From positions 1 to 64,000 of the IMG/VR virus record IMGVR_UViG_3300006990_000020: a stretch of 64,000 nucleotides of DNA; one strand, written 5' to 3'. Below are positions 6,065 to 62,259 of the stretch, in pieces. Under the pieces are notes generated by a model. The model made no database searches. It had not been told where the DNA came from and saw only the letters and a list, made by a program, of their open reading frames with translations. This stretch comes from a virus. The translations under genes were made by a program, and so were the position numbers. The stretch's first letter is position 1, and the number at the start of each line of letters is the position of its first letter.

Positions 6065-6316
6065 TTAACTTGGTCTCCAACCTTTTTCCCATTTTTCTTT
6101 GTTTGGATAATAATAAATTAAATAACACTCTTCGCAACATCCTTCTTTTTTCATTTCTTCGACGTCTTCAACAGTTGCTATTAACTTTTTACAAATAGGA
6201 CAGTCTAAAGAAATAGATTCTACACCAAATGGTCTGACATATCTAATGCCATTAACGTATGCTTCTTCGTTGTCTTTGTCAATTTTAATCCAGTCCCAGT
6301 CATTTGAATTCAACAT
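6065..6316 (-). CDS. small zinc-ribbon protein (83 aa)
   Basis: The preferred start is the ATG at 6316 (MLNSNDWDWIKI): it has a strong GAGAGGAAA ribosome site about eight bases upstream and overlaps the end of the Mre11-Rad50 gene by only 17 bases, whereas the longer frame from 6361 lacks a good site. The 83-residue protein carries CPICKK and GCCEECY about 25 residues later, a four-cysteine pattern that should bind one zinc. The rest is Trp/Tyr- and Lys/Glu-rich and ends KEKWEKGWRPS. Small zinc ribbons of this type in phages often bind nucleic acid or RNA polymerase, but nothing here fixes a function. Confidence 0.75.
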   Translation of the reverse strand: MLNSNDWDWIKIDKDNEEAYVNGIRYVRPFGVESISLDCPICKKLIATVEDVEEMKKEGCCEECYLIYYYPNKEKWEKGWRPS

Positions 6317-9300
6317 AAGAATCGTTTCCTCTCGTTGTAATTTCAATATTTCTATCAACAATGTCTTTTATTGCGTCAACATGTGATATTACTATTATTG
6401 ATTTAAAAAACTTGCGTAAACTCTGGAGTAGTCTTCCACAAGATTCTATGTTTGTCGAGTCAAGTGATCCAAAACCTTCGTCAATAATAAACATATCAGA
6501 TTTAGGAAGTGATGAAATGTTAATAAGCGCTACTCTTATTGCAATAGAAGTAATCATTTTTTCCATTCCACTTGCACATTCTATAATTCTCTTTGAATCA
6601 CCGTAATCAATGTAAACTTCTAATGCATTATTGCAATCCTCTAGAGAAATCGTAAAACCAACTACTCCACTGAGGATTGATTTTATTTCGCTGTTGATTT
6701 TAGGTAGACTATTTCTAATTAGCATTGAAGGAATTCCTTTTTTAGAAACCGCTGTTGAAAACAAGTCAAAGGTTTTCCATTCGTCAATTAATTTTTCATA
6801 TTTTGTTTTATTGTTTCTATTTTCCTCTATTTTGGAATTAAAATCAATAGTATTAAATTCACAACTTCTTATGTTGTTTTCAACAGAGTATATTAAATCG
6901 TTAATCTGTTTTATTTGCTGTTTGACATTTTCTAATTTTCTGGATTGTATATCATCTGTGTAATCCTCTAACTCTAGACATAATTCTGTGAATTTTTTAT
7001 CTTCTTCGACTAGTTGTTCCATTGCAATATCAGAAATGCTTTGCTTTTCTTTTAAACTTTCATTTTCTAAACCTATCTTATACTCTTTATTTAAAACGTC
7101 ATTATACCTTTTTATGTTTTTCTCTATGTTGTCGCTGCTCAGTCTATCAAAAGAAGACTTAATACTTGCTATTTCTTTTATTATTAAATCAAGCTCAGCT
7201 TTAGTATTAGGTAAAGATGTTTTTGCTTCATGAGCGTTTTTTATAAATCTACAACTTAAAAACTTGTCTTCACATGGGACACTATCTAATATTCTAAGCT
7301 CGCTTTTAAGCCTGTCATTCTGCTTAGATAAAGAGTTTTTCTGTGAATTAAAGTTGTCTAATTTCTTTTTAAGGTTATTAAGATTCTCTTTGTCATTTTC
7401 TAAATCTTCAATAGAGTAGCTGTTCTTGAACTCGTTTATGGTTTTAATTTTAAGTAAATTTTCAGCTAATTTCTGGCTGTATTTTCTTTTCTTTTCAGAT
7501 TCACTAGAAATTTTATTTTTAATAAAGGCAAGTTTTTGTTTTGCTTTGTCGTAAGTAAAGCCTGATGGGTGTGATCTAAAGGTGTCTTCAATTTTGCGCT
7601 GTTCTATCTTAAGCTCAACATCTTTATCTCTTAAACTGTTAATTTTTATTTTTAAGTCAGACTTTAGAGAATTAGATTCCTTGATTTTTTGCAAGTAGTC
7701 TTTCTCTATTGTCACCCAGTTTTTTTCGTCTGTATTTTTAAGTCTATTTTTTAAAACAATATAGTTTTCTCTTGAAGTTCTATATAAGTCTTCATATATC
7801 TCTAAGTGTAAAAACTTAGATAGAACGCTTTTTCTTGCTGAAGATTTTTCTTTAACAAATGTATTCATTTCACCTTGCGAAGCAAAAGTTGTATAGAGAA
7901 AATCGTCTGATGTTCCAATTAACTTTCTAAGTATTTTCTCTGTTTCTCTGCGCTGTTCTTCAGTCTCGTCTAGTGAATATTGATCTTTCAAGTTAATTAA
8001 TTCAAGCTTAGTAGTTGCTGAGGTTATGCCTTTTTTATTAGTCTTCTTAGTCGTCTCTCTGATAACCTCATATGAATTAGTTCCAACACTAAAATTAATC
8101 TTTGACTTGCATGTACCTTTTCTAGTATTAACTACATCTTGATTTTTAATAGATCCTCTGTCTGTAGTATTGAAAAGAGTATACATTATTGTGCCAGGAA
8201 TAGATGATTTTCCTGCTCGATTATTTCCAAATATTCCTACGACACCATTTAAATTTTTAAAGTTGATGTTATTTCCTTTACCGTAAGCAAAAGTATTATC
8301 AAACTCCATATTATTAATTGACCATTTTTGCCCATGAACATCTAATAAGTTCTCTGGTATTTTATCTAGGTGAGAAGTAAAATGAGAATCAACCTTAGCA
8401 AAAACATCTTCTTCTAGACCTTCATAGAAATTATTAATTAAACTCTTTCTATCACCAGATTTTCTAATATCATAAGACGTAATATTCTTGTCTTTAATTT
8501 TTACATCATCTAAATTGTTTTGCGTACTTGTATTTTGATAGACTATTTCGTGAGCTTTTTTCTCAAACTTTAGATAATGATGCAAAACCTTGATTTCAGC
8601 TTGTGATATTTCACAATCAGCTCTTATTCTAAATCTAACACCAGTCTTGACTTTTTCACAAAAAATAATTGTCTCTTCTAGCGATCCTCTCCAGTCAATA
8701 GTAATAAATGCCTTAGGATTATCTATATTAACAAATCTACTCTTATATTCATATCTGCTTTTAATATCCCATATTAAATATCCTTTTTTAATATCTTCGC
8801 CGTAGTTTTGCTGGATTGTTGAACCAGGATAAGCTACTCTCTTTTCACTGTCTAAATATTGTAACTTATGGATATCACCTAGGAAAACAAAGTCGTAGCC
8901 GTCAAAAAAGTTTAAGTTAACTTCACCTTCTAGTTCCCAGTCTACGTCTGTTTTTGATCCCCAGACTGCACCGTGAAAGCATGCAATATTAATGCTGTTT
9001 TCTATAGGTTTGACATCCTTCCAACCTTTTTCGTCAAAGCAAGAAAAAATACACCAGTTTAAATTCTGATTATCAATTTTATGGTCTGTTTGGTAATTAC
9101 CACTTTTCTTGTAAAGTTTTAAACGTGGGTTATCCAGAGCATTAACAATAGGCGTTATTGCATCTTGTCGGTCTTCGTTTAAAATCAAACCATCATGATT
9201 TCCTAAGATGATATGTGTCTCTGCTATATTTGCTAAAGAATCAAACCACCAATGAAGACACTCAATAAGCTCTGGGGTGATTCCTTGCGTCTTAGAATGA

Positions 9301-9440
9301 ACAATATCACCACCGATAAAAATTAGATCAGGTGACTCTTTTTTTAATGAGGAAAAAAGTCTTGTAAAAACAGTCTTGTACTCTTCGTGTCTTTTTAGAC
9401 TGCGCCAGTGGATATCTGAAATGTGTGCTATTTTTAACAT
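6300..9440 (-). CDS. single-chain Mre11-Rad50 (SbcD-SbcC, T4 gp47-gp46) fusion
   Basis: One uninterrupted 1046-residue frame contains both subunits of the recombination nuclease complex. Residues 1 to about 230 are an Mre11/SbcD phosphoesterase: SDIHW (Asp9, His11), GGDIVH (Asp45), GNHDG (Asn81, His82), FHGAVWG (His156) and LGDIHKL (His191). Residues about 375 to 1046 are a Rad50/SbcC ATPase: Walker A GNNRAGKSS (405-413), the Q-loop region FASQGEM near 520, a long charged coiled coil split by a C-x6-C pair (Cys723, Cys730) where the zinc hook should be, signature CASGMEKM near 957 and Walker B MFIIDEGFGSLD near 985. In T4 these are two genes that resect DNA ends for recombination-dependent replication. 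No ribosome site is obvious before the ATG at 9440; a small hairpin (9450-9472) lies just upstream. Confidence 0.93.
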   Translation of the reverse strand: MLKIAHISDIHWRSLKRHEEYKTVFTRLFSSLKKESPDLIFIGGDIVHSKTQGITPELIECLHWWFDSLANIAETHIILGNHDGLILNEDRQDAITPIVNALDNPRLKLYKKSGNYQTDHKIDNQNLNWCIFSCFDEKGWKDVKPIENSINIACFHGAVWGSKTDVDWELEGEVNLNFFDGYDFVFLGDIHKLQYLDSEKRVAYPGSTIQQNYGEDIKKGYLIWDIKSRYEYKSRFVNIDNPKAFITIDWRGSLEETIIFCEKVKTGVRFRIRADCEISQAEIKVLHHYLKFEKKAHEIVYQNTSTQNNLDDVKIKDKNITSYDIRKSGDRKSLINNFYEGLEEDVFAKVDSHFTSHLDKIPENLLDVHGQKWSINNMEFDNTFAYGKGNNINFKNLNGVVGIFGNNRAGKSSIPGTIMYTLFNTTDRGSIKNQDVVNTRKGTCKSKINFSVGTNSYEVIRETTKKTNKKGITSATTKLELINLKDQYSLDETEEQRRETEKILRKLIGTSDDFLYTTFASQGEMNTFVKEKSSARKSVLSKFLHLEIYEDLYRTSRENYIVLKNRLKNTDEKNWVTIEKDYLQKIKESNSLKSDLKIKINSLRDKDVELKIEQRKIEDTFRSHPSGFTYDKAKQKLAFIKNKISSESEKKRKYSQKLAENLLKIKTINEFKNSYSIEDLENDKENLNNLKKKLDNFNSQKNSLSKQNDRLKSELRILDSVPCEDKFLSCRFIKNAHEAKTSLPNTKAELDLIIKEIASIKSSFDRLSSDNIEKNIKRYNDVLNKEYKIGLENESLKEKQSISDIAMEQLVEEDKKFTELCLELEDYTDDIQSRKLENVKQQIKQINDLIYSVENNIRSCEFNTIDFNSKIEENRNNKTKYEKLIDEWKTFDLFSTAVSKKGIPSMLIRNSLPKINSEIKSILSGVVGFTISLEDCNNALEVYIDYGDSKRIIECASGMEKMITSIAIRVALINISSLPKSDMFIIDEGFGSLDSTNIESCGRLLQSLRKFFKSIIVISHVDAIKDIVDRNIEITTRGNDSYVEFK

Positions 9441-9443
9441 AAT

Positions 9444-10415
9444 TTAAAGCATTGCTATTTTTGAGAGCAATGTATCTTCTTTCTTGTAAAGGTTTGCTTC
9501 GTCAAGAGTCTTCATAAATTGTGAATGTGTCATATCACCTACATCATCTGCAGACCTTGTGTCTAAAATATTGACATTGACATCATATGAGTATAACACT
9601 TCAGCAATCTGCATTGATTTATAATACACATCACTATCTAATGCTAGGTTGACTTCGGTTTTATTTTCAACTATCTTTAGAAATAGTTTCATATCAGGTG
9701 TTAAAGATGAACCTAAAAGACAAGTTGAATTATCGTTTGTTTTTAATAAATCTAAAGGTCCTTCAACAATTGTTAGAGGCCTATTCCAGTCAATATTAAT
9801 TTCATTAAATATAATGTTTTTCTTTTTAACATCAGCATTTTTATATTTAAAGGGACTATTTCCAGGTTCATCGATTTTTCTAGAAGTATAAAAATTTATC
9901 TCACCGTTAGCATCTAATGAAGGTAAAATAAGTGATCTTCTAAACTCTTGATCAAGTGAGTATCCCAATCTTAGAAACCATATTTTATGTTTAGATACTC
10001 CTCTTTTTAGTGCGTATTTAAACACGTCTCTAACATCTGGGTTTATAGATCCAAATGCATTTGCTAAGAGCTTGAAACCTCTAGGTGTTTCAACTAATTC
10101 AATTTCTTCAATGTCTTCTTCATCTTCAAATAATGATTTTTTTCTCAAAGACTTTTGAAAATAAATACTAGAAGAATCTACTTTAGAGCTGTTAAGTTTT
10201 GATATTACATAAGATATATTACTACCTTTTTTGCTGCAAATCCAACAATGATAAAGATTTTTTTCTAAATGAATTACTAGTTTTAATTTTTTCTTGTTTG
10301 GGTGTTTACAAAATGGACACCAAATAGATGCATTGACACCGTCCTTTGATAGATTAACGTTAAGGAATGATTCGAGAAAACTAAATTTCTCTTCAATTGA
10401 TTTTTGTCTTGTCAT
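9444..10415 (-). CDS. DNA primase (CHC2 zinc finger plus TOPRIM)
   Basis: The 323-residue protein starts with a CHC2-type zinc domain: CPFCKHPNKKK (Cys33, Cys36) and YHCWICSKKG (His56, Cys57, Cys60). The central and C-terminal part carries a TOPRIM fold with LTIVEGPLDLL (catalytic glutamate near residue 217) and LALDSDVY (near 255), which bind the metal for primer synthesis. This is the layout of DnaG-type and T4 gp61-type primases, in a compact form with no helicase domain and no obvious helicase-binding extension. The start overlaps the RuvC-like gene by 23 bases, with AAGG upstream; the Mre11-Rad50 gene follows four bases after the stop. The cluster is therefore a replication/recombination operon. 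Confidence 0.9.
   Translation of the reverse strand: MTRQKSIEEKFSFLESFLNVNLSKDGVNASIWCPFCKHPNKKKLKLVIHLEKNLYHCWICSKKGSNISYVISKLNSSKVDSSSIYFQKSLRKKSLFEDEEDIEEIELVETPRGFKLLANAFGSINPDVRDVFKYALKRGVSKHKIWFLRLGYSLDQEFRRSLILPSLDANGEINFYTSRKIDEPGNSPFKYKNADVKKKNIIFNEINIDWNRPLTIVEGPLDLLKTNDNSTCLLGSSLTPDMKLFLKIVENKTEVNLALDSDVYYKSMQIAEVLYSYDVNVNILDTRSADDVGDMTHSQFMKTLDEANLYKKEDTLLSKIAML
9450..9472 (-). other. small hairpin immediately upstream of the Mre11-Rad50 start
   Basis: On the minus strand CATTGCT pairs perfectly with AGCAATG across a nine-base loop, overlapping the last codons of the primase gene and ending ten bases before the ATG at 9440, where no purine-rich ribosome site is visible. It may affect translation of the fusion gene. 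The stem is only seven base pairs, so chance is possible. Confidence 0.3.
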
Positions 10416-10962
10416 ATAAATAAGCCTTACATATTACATATGCGTCAGACATATCATAACAACATTCGTCATATTTTACAAGTCCTTTATTTGGTCCACT
10501 TTTAAGCACCTTCTCAGGCCAAATAAAATTTTCTCTTTCTCTAACCCATTCAAATACTTGCTCTTTTGTAGACTTGTCTAAAGTTTTATCAATTTTTATT
10601 TGTAAATTCTTCCTAGCTGTGTTTACACTAATATATACAGGTTTACTACCAAGCTCAGTATATGCTAAATAAGATACTATCCCATTAAACCTAGTTAATT
10701 TAGATAGAGTTTTAGCAGAAGACAATCCTCTCTTAAAAGACTGAAGTGCTTCTTCTATAGAAATTTCTACTTTATTATTTATATCGTATCTATTTTTAAG
10801 TTCATTAAAGTAATTTTGTACCTCTAAAGATTTGTCAAATATACACTTTATTTTCTTTAAATTAATATTTTCTAAATTTATTAATTTTTCTTTGTAATCT
10901 AACAAACAAACTCCAATAATAGATGTAGAAATATCTAGTCCTATATAACATACTTTTTGCAT
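10393..10962 (-). CDS. RuvC-like Holliday junction resolvase / RNase H-fold nuclease
   Basis: This 189-residue protein has the four acidic positions of the RuvC superfamily: IGLDISTSIIGVCLL (Asp10) at the N-terminus, EISIEEAL (Glu70/Glu71) in the middle, and CCYDMSDAYVICKAYL (Asp170, Asp173) at the C-terminus, where the last helix carries the DxxDA signature. The length matches RuvC (about 170-190). Resolving branched DNA before packaging is done by an unrelated enzyme (endonuclease VII) in T4; phages with RuvC-like enzymes probably use them for the same purpose. The ATG overlaps the stop of the 1104-residue structural gene as TAATG, and the primase start overlaps its end, so it is the first gene of the replication trio. 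Confidence 0.88.
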   Translation of the reverse strand: MQKVCYIGLDISTSIIGVCLLDYKEKLINLENINLKKIKCIFDKSLEVQNYFNELKNRYDINNKVEISIEEALQSFKRGLSSAKTLSKLTRFNGIVSYLAYTELGSKPVYISVNTARKNLQIKIDKTLDKSTKEQVFEWVRERENFIWPEKVLKSGPNKGLVKYDECCYDMSDAYVICKAYLYDKTKIN

Positions 10963-60900: not shown

Positions 60901-62259
60901 TTAAAGAAGTTTTGCTGCAACGTTTGCCAATTCTGATCTGTATCCTTTTTCAAAGTTAACGTGACCAGTGACAATTTCATTCTTAAGTTTCTCTATGATA
61001 ATTGTTAAACCATTTGAGTCTTTATCTATATATGGCAAATCAACTTGCTCTATATCTCCAAGCAAAACTATTTTAGAGTTTTTGCCTGTCCTCGTAATTA
61101 CAGTTTTAAGTTCATGAACTGTTGCATTTTGTGCTTCGTCTACAATGATGACTGCATCATTAAAGCTTCGACCTCTTATATACGAGAGAGGTGCAATATC
61201 AATAGTTCCTTTTTCCATCATGATGTCGAAGTAAGATAAGTCACCAAATTGATTTCTAAAATTATCAACAATAGGTGCTAACCAAGGTGACATTTTTTCG
61301 TTTAATGTTCCTGGGAGAAAACCTATATCTTTACCAACAGTCTGGATTGGTCTAGTAAAAATAATTCTGTTCTTTTGTTCTCTTTCTATTTTTTTAAGTG
61401 CAGACATGAGTGTCAAATAGGTTTTGCCACTTCCAGGCACACCAGTCAACGTAACCAGTGGAATATTGTCATCTTCTAAAAGATTTAATGCAAATATCTG
61501 CTCTTTGTTTTTCGCTTCAATTCCTAACTTGCTATAAAGTTCAGACTTAGACTTAATTAACTCTAAAGCGTTACCACGTTTGGCGCAAAGCGCTGATCCT
61601 GAATTGTTGTCAATTGATTTTAACACTACAAATTCATTTTGCGATATTGTTAAAGGATCAATACCTACTGTCTTAACAAGTGTACTCATTGCCAAAGACT
61701 TATGACTATATAGAGAATTAATTACGCCGGCATCTACGTGAATTTCTTTGTATCCTTTGAAAATGCCATCATTGTCTTTCTTGTTCTTAATAAAAGAATA
61801 ATCAGCATAGTAGTCATTAGCATCGAGACCAGCTGCATCAGCTTTAACTCTTAGGTTTATATCTTTAGTAACTATTATTACCTTTTGATTAGACAAACCG
61901 TTTTGATTTCGTTTTACATAGTTTGCATTAGACAAGATCATGTTGTCATTATTAGTTTTGTCTAGAGTATCAATACCTTCCCAACATTGGTCTGTTATGA
62001 CTTTAATAAGAGTTTTGCTGTCTTTAATCTCTGATGGGTATATGCCTTCATTTAGGCTTCCTTCGCTTCTTATTTCATCAAGAAATCTATTGAAGTATCT
62101 TGAGTTTTCTCCTAAAATTCCTTCTCTGCTTTTAAACCTATCTAGTTCTTCTAAGACTGTCATAGGAATGTATATATCGTTATCTTTTAAATTAAAGATA
62201 CAGTTCCTGTCATAAAGCAGCACGCTAGTATCAATAACAAATATTTTTCGATCAGACAT
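60901..62259 (-). CDS. phoH: PIN-domain PhoH-like ATPase (PhoH2 type, 452 aa)
   Basis: The N-terminal 150 residues are a PIN nuclease domain: FVIDTSVLLYD (Asp10), VLEELDRFK (Glu38/39), TNNDNMILSNA (Asp105) and IIVTKDINLR (Asp133). After a linker, residues about 255-445 form the PhoH RecA-like ATPase: Walker A GVPGSGKTYL (273-282), RPIQTVGKDIGFLPGTLNEK, Walker B AVIIVDEAQNA (369-379) and LLGDIEQVDLP. The domain order and length fit PhoH2-type proteins, in which the PIN part is an RNA-degrading toxin and the ATPase an RNA helicase. Phage PhoH genes are very common in marine phages and their role is unsettled. GGAAAGG precedes the ATG. Confidence 0.94.
   Translation of the reverse strand: MSDRKIFVIDTSVLLYDRNCIFNLKDNDIYIPMTVLEELDRFKSREGILGENSRYFNRFLDEIRSEGSLNEGIYPSEIKDSKTLIKVITDQCWEGIDTLDKTNNDNMILSNANYVKRNQNGLSNQKVIIVTKDINLRVKADAAGLDANDYYADYSFIKNKKDNDGIFKGYKEIHVDAGVINSLYSHKSLAMSTLVKTVGIDPLTISQNEFVVLKSIDNNSGSALCAKRGNALELIKSKSELYSKLGIEAKNKEQIFALNLLEDDNIPLVTLTGVPGSGKTYLTLMSALKKIEREQKNRIIFTRPIQTVGKDIGFLPGTLNEKMSPWLAPIVDNFRNQFGDLSYFDIMMEKGTIDIAPLSYIRGRSFNDAVIIVDEAQNATVHELKTVITRTGKNSKIVLLGDIEQVDLPYIDKDSNGLTIIIEKLKNEIVTGHVNFEKGYRSELANVAAKLL

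Follow-up and report, generated by a model that had tools for sequence, protein, structure and literature searches.

A single-chain Mre11–Rad50 protein encoded by a phage

The fused gene and its neighbours

The 64,000-nucleotide stretch of viral DNA analysed here (the window, positions 1 to 64,000 of IMG/VR record IMGVR_UViG_3300006990_000020) carries on its minus strand, at positions 6300–9440, a gene in which homologues of Mre11 (SbcD) and Rad50 (SbcC) are joined. The open reading frame begins with an ATG and continues for 1046 codons with no internal stops, and the original prediction, made from the letters alone, that both enzymes lie in one continuous frame is borne out by the database matches of its product: Pfam Metallophos on residues 2–192 (E = 1.4e-12), Pfam AAA_23 on residues 382–590 and the SbcC family phrog_77 on residues 293–1044 (E = 8e-46). 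When the fused protein is used as the query, the solved structures nearest in sequence are chains of Rad50, SbcC and SbcD, and matches to SbcD and SbcC, at the level of both domains and folds, span almost the entire chain. The window protein is thus a genuine single-chain Mre11–Rad50, with both homologues on one polypeptide and Mre11 first, the arrangement by which Yoshida, Claverie and Ogata defined such fusions (Yoshida et al. 2011, PMC3175470).

Directly upstream on the same strand (9444–10415, −) lies a gene for a primase-like protein with a CHC2 zinc finger (PF01807, phrog_47), and, of 166 loci containing both genes, 144 share this arrangement, with the fused gene next to the primase on the downstream side and on the same strand. 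Downstream in the window come two small ORFs, the first of them zinc-ribbon-like, and then the large terminase and the portal. This first ORF (6065–6361, −) overlaps the 3′ end of the fused gene; its sequence shows a zinc-ribbon-like pattern, CPIC...CCEEC, 74 loci have homologues, and no Pfam family matches it. On the other side, the start of the primase gene is overlapped by an ORF (10393–10962, −) with a weak match to phrog_159, a RuvC-like resolvase, which together with the fused nuclease makes up a recombination cluster beside the terminase and portal. Elsewhere in the window, a 452-residue PIN and PhoH fusion protein (60901–62259, −) is an ordinary phage PhoH-type gene.

Domains and catalytic motifs

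To describe the protein, an AlphaFold2 model of the fused chain (mean pLDDT 84.8, pTM 0.52) was compared with solved structures and read together with the Pfam matches and an alignment of 64 diverse sequences, in which the catalytic residues of both halves are invariant or almost so. Residues 1–303 (8532–9440, −) form a calcineurin-like nuclease followed by a capping domain, as in Mre11 and SbcD, and superpose on the nuclease and capping domains of Staphylococcus aureus SbcD (7dog_A) with a Z score of 25.8 (VIA-align). The motif residues of this half are D9, H11, D45, N81-H82, H156 and G188-D189-I190-H191. The expectation that every Mre11 metal motif up to His191 would be present therefore stands for D9/H11, D45, N81-H82, H156 and H191 but needs amending at two motifs: GDxxD reads GDIVH, with His in place of the third Asp, and GHxH reads GDIH, with Asp189 in place of the first His.

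The Rad50 half possesses the full set of ABC-ATPase motifs expected of Rad50/SbcC, split by a long coiled coil. Its N-lobe (residues 372–545; 7806–8327, −), identified by domain match, model and alignment, contains Walker A (GNNRAGKS, 405–412) and the Q-loop (Q522). The C-lobe (residues 896–1046; 6303–6755, −), recognised in the model and the alignment, contains the signature S957-G-M-E960, Walker B (D987-E988), the D-loop Asp (D994) and the H-loop His (H1020), so that Walker A at 405 and Walker B near 985 are found where they had been predicted. Together the two lobes match the SbcC head 7yzp_C with a Z score of 31.2. Between them, residues 546–895 (6756–7805, −) are modelled as an antiparallel coiled coil with arms of about 150 residues each and helices within 547–720 and 734–898. 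The stretch containing the ABC signature (6555–6572, −; residues 957–962) reads SGMEKM as against the canonical SGGE, and SGME is present in 63 of the 64 aligned sequences.

Between the two halves, the AlphaFold2 secondary structure places two helices (328–339 and 344–358) within residues 328–358 (8367–8459, −), the position occupied in Mre11 by the helix-loop-helix that binds Rad50. From its position, this element is a putative helix-loop-helix. It is followed in the model by a linker of 13 residues (359–371; 8328–8366, −) that leads into the Rad50 head at its first strand.

Proposed assembly and activity of the single chain

In the two-gene complex the stoichiometry is already two Mre11 to two Rad50; fixing the ratio at 1:1 by fusion, as had been proposed, would therefore not change it. 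The further proposal, that fusion removes the need for a capping interaction, is contradicted, since the capping domain and two helices at the Rad50-binding position are both retained in the model. With a probability of about 0.88, we read the protein as the single-chain Mre11–Rad50 nuclease-ATPase of a large marine tailed phage, acting in DNA-end processing as a homodimer equivalent to M2R2; that it forms dimers, binds in cis, is enzymatically active and takes part in replication is our inference. Two chains would pair through their N-terminal nuclease domains to give the M2R2 equivalent, the two ABC heads would engage on ATP binding, and in each chain the helix-loop-helix would dock at the root of that same chain's coil. 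DNA ends would be opened and resected for recombination-dependent replication and repair, and host DNA might also be degraded, as it is by T4 gp46/gp47.

The linker is where this reading meets its strongest competitor. If the fusion instead acted in trans, or formed larger oligomers, the nuclease half of one chain would serve the Rad50 half of another, and assembly would be changed in the way that the original prediction suggested. The segment spanning residues 304–371, with about 68 residues and weak sequence conservation (mean majority fraction 0.29–0.38 in the 64 aligned sequences), could reach another chain, and the model, with a pTM of only 0.52, does not fix how nuclease, helix-loop-helix and heads are placed with respect to one another, in cis or in trans. 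Against this, the length of the equivalent segment hardly varies, being 65–71 residues in 64/64 sequences, and the 13 residues from helix-loop-helix to head agree with the cis link of 28 Å, or 9–12 residues, that was calculated in 2011 from the Thermotoga complex (PMC3175470). We therefore regard action in trans as unlikely.

Less likely still is that the nuclease half is altered or inactive and that the protein serves mainly as an ATP-driven DNA tether. What speaks for it is that the first His of GHxH is Asp in all 64 aligned sequences and that the ABC signature is likewise non-canonical; with GDIH for GHxH and SGME for SGGE, activity could differ. Asp is, however, a usual metal ligand, every other metal or catalytic residue is kept, and GDLH is also found in the T5-like D12 proteins of phages My1 and PG07. 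Mimivirus R555 has Asp at the same place (PMC3175470).

Distribution and relationships of the fusion

That two adjacent genes have been joined by a lost stop codon, through an assembly or base-calling artefact, has a negligible chance and is rejected, because a separately assembled contig of 8816 bp (L005), with 12 mismatches to the window, spans the whole gene in one piece with only one synonymous difference, and because about 140 full-length fused frames are present in related loci from isolates as well as metagenomes. Neither are the relatives nearly all two-gene forms with a stop codon lost only here: the full-length fusion is present in 79 of 84 related virus-contig loci, and the other five are cut by a contig end. 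This first search favoured full-length matches and was repeated with the Mre11 half alone, using queries from distant members. Among the best 80 loci so obtained, 60 are complete fusions and 20 run off the contig with the frame still open (16 of them already beyond Walker A), whilst none has the split two-gene form.

The fusion is therefore not peculiar to the window phage but is fixed in a large clade of marine phages, which answers the question of how widely it occurs among phage proteins. Sequenced isolates have it as well: it is encoded in one frame by Microcystis phage Mel-JY01 (WWT39521.1), Tenacibaculum phages pT24, PTm1 and PTm5, Chryseobacterium phages MA9V-1/2 and Sphingomonas phage PAU (gp288), and also by a 735-kb metagenomic megaphage (LR756501). 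These proteins differ from the window protein in their sequence (about 30% identity or less), in having a CxxC hook and, in most cases, in their greater length (1201–1326 residues). Fusions also occur on contigs within bacterial and archaeal metagenome-assembled genomes, where they are probably phage DNA binned with these genomes. A search of plasmids gave weak SbcC matches only.

One apparent natural split pair, in the 484-kb phage LR756508 (LR756508.1, L002 3944–8169), was rejected as such, as what breaks the fused frame there is a 305-residue ORF that matches a TnsA-like endonuclease. The ORF lies directly after the active-site motif GDIHK(R)Q; no Rfam intron was found at the interruption, and the insert appears to be a mobile element lodged in a conserved stretch of the active site.

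Six relatives on contigs of 133–242 kb and Mel-JY01 each have a single match to metallophosphoesterases and a single full match to SbcC, both in the same frame, and no separate gp46/gp47 pair was detected in these records, which may be incomplete. The fused gene is probably the window phage's only version of Mre11–Rad50, though its own record is a 73.7-kb fragment and a second copy could lie elsewhere in the phage.

As had been claimed of T4 and most of its relatives, separate genes are indeed found in T4, in the cyanophages S-SKS1 and P-TIM68, in the T5-like phages My1 and PG07 and in the SPO1-like phages ESa1 and 043JT007, as well as in Moorella phage MTATph1. T4 gp47/gp46 and the S-SKS1 and P-TIM68 homologues are the same two enzymes, in large tailed phages and with the same expected role, but they are encoded by two genes with small ORFs between them and have GHFH or GHYH, a shorter SbcC and a CxxC hook. 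The D12/D13 pairs of Pectobacterium phage My1 and Vibrio phage PG07 share the GDxH active-site variant with the window protein, and differ from it in having a CxxC hook and two genes. The 20-base overlap between these two genes could plausibly represent a stage on the way to fusion. Escherichia coli SbcC and SbcD have the fold of both halves (Z scores of 31.2 for the SbcC head and 24.4 for SbcD) but are encoded by two genes, with 14–23% identity over the structurally aligned residues.

Three trees were built, from the Rad50 half, from the Mre11 half and from both halves with E. coli SbcCD, LR756508 being left out. Each of the three contains a branch that has all 23 fused rows on the same side. 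For the combined tree this branch has an ultrafast bootstrap of 100 and an SH-aLRT of 99, with T4, the T5-like and SPO1-like phages, the cyanophages and E. coli on the opposite side. One fusion (or one split) is consequently enough for the sampled phages. The trees, in which the root was not inferred and branches are long, cover phages (0305phi8-36 aside) and E. coli, and so do not conflict with the several origins that the 2011 study put forward for a wider set of fusions, with eukaryotic and giant-virus members such as Mimivirus R555, which was not monophyletic (PMC3175470).

Fusions of this kind were already published in that year, the examples being Mimivirus R555, Bacillus phage 0305phi8-36 and a plasmid SbcDC (Yoshida et al. 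2011, PMC3175470). Like the window protein, they have Mre11 at the N-terminus and Rad50 at the C-terminus and keep the capping domain, a helix-loop-helix region, putative in the window protein, and a short linker. R555 has His for the third Asp and Asp for the first His of GHxH (PMC3175470), by this published description the same two active-site changes as here. R555-like genes were reported as abundant in aquatic virus metagenomes, on scaffolds that also carry phage primases (PMC3175470), as does the window locus. Our literature search, whose scope took in few subscription journals, found no subsequent publication dealing specifically with fusions of this type in phages. What is added here is a complete gene in its genomic context, the apex described below and the placing of the sampled phage fusions on one side of a branch. 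The complete loci confirm what the 2011 study could check on a few long scaffolds only (PMC3175470), namely that a large group of marine phages carries the fusion as a standard component, and a natural single-chain enzyme of about 1040 residues could be convenient for structural work on a complex that otherwise has two subunits.

The apex of the coiled coil

The least expected feature found is the apex of the coiled coil. Where Rad50 and SbcC have a CxxC zinc hook, the window protein has none; at the turn between the coil arms in the model, residues 723–730 (7251–7274, −) form a hook-like CEDKFLSC, a C-x6-C arrangement that is found in 56 of the 64 aligned sequences. The mean majority fraction is 0.68 at the apex, comparable to the head lobes (0.66 and 0.72), as against 0.36 in the surrounding coil. 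CxxC hooks are the form seen in the sister group, among the fusions of Bacteroidota phages and in almost every two-gene phage examined.

It is possible, though we put it forward only tentatively, that a large clade of marine phages has a distinct conserved hook, P-C-x6-C-x-[FY]-[IV], in place of CxxC. Its single-chain enzymes might then be tethered through another metal geometry, or free of metal, and would represent a separate, minimal homodimeric class of Mre11–Rad50 with a single origin and a subsequent spread among large marine phages. In most of the relatives the apex sequence is PCGDxFPTCKF, and it is strongly conserved.
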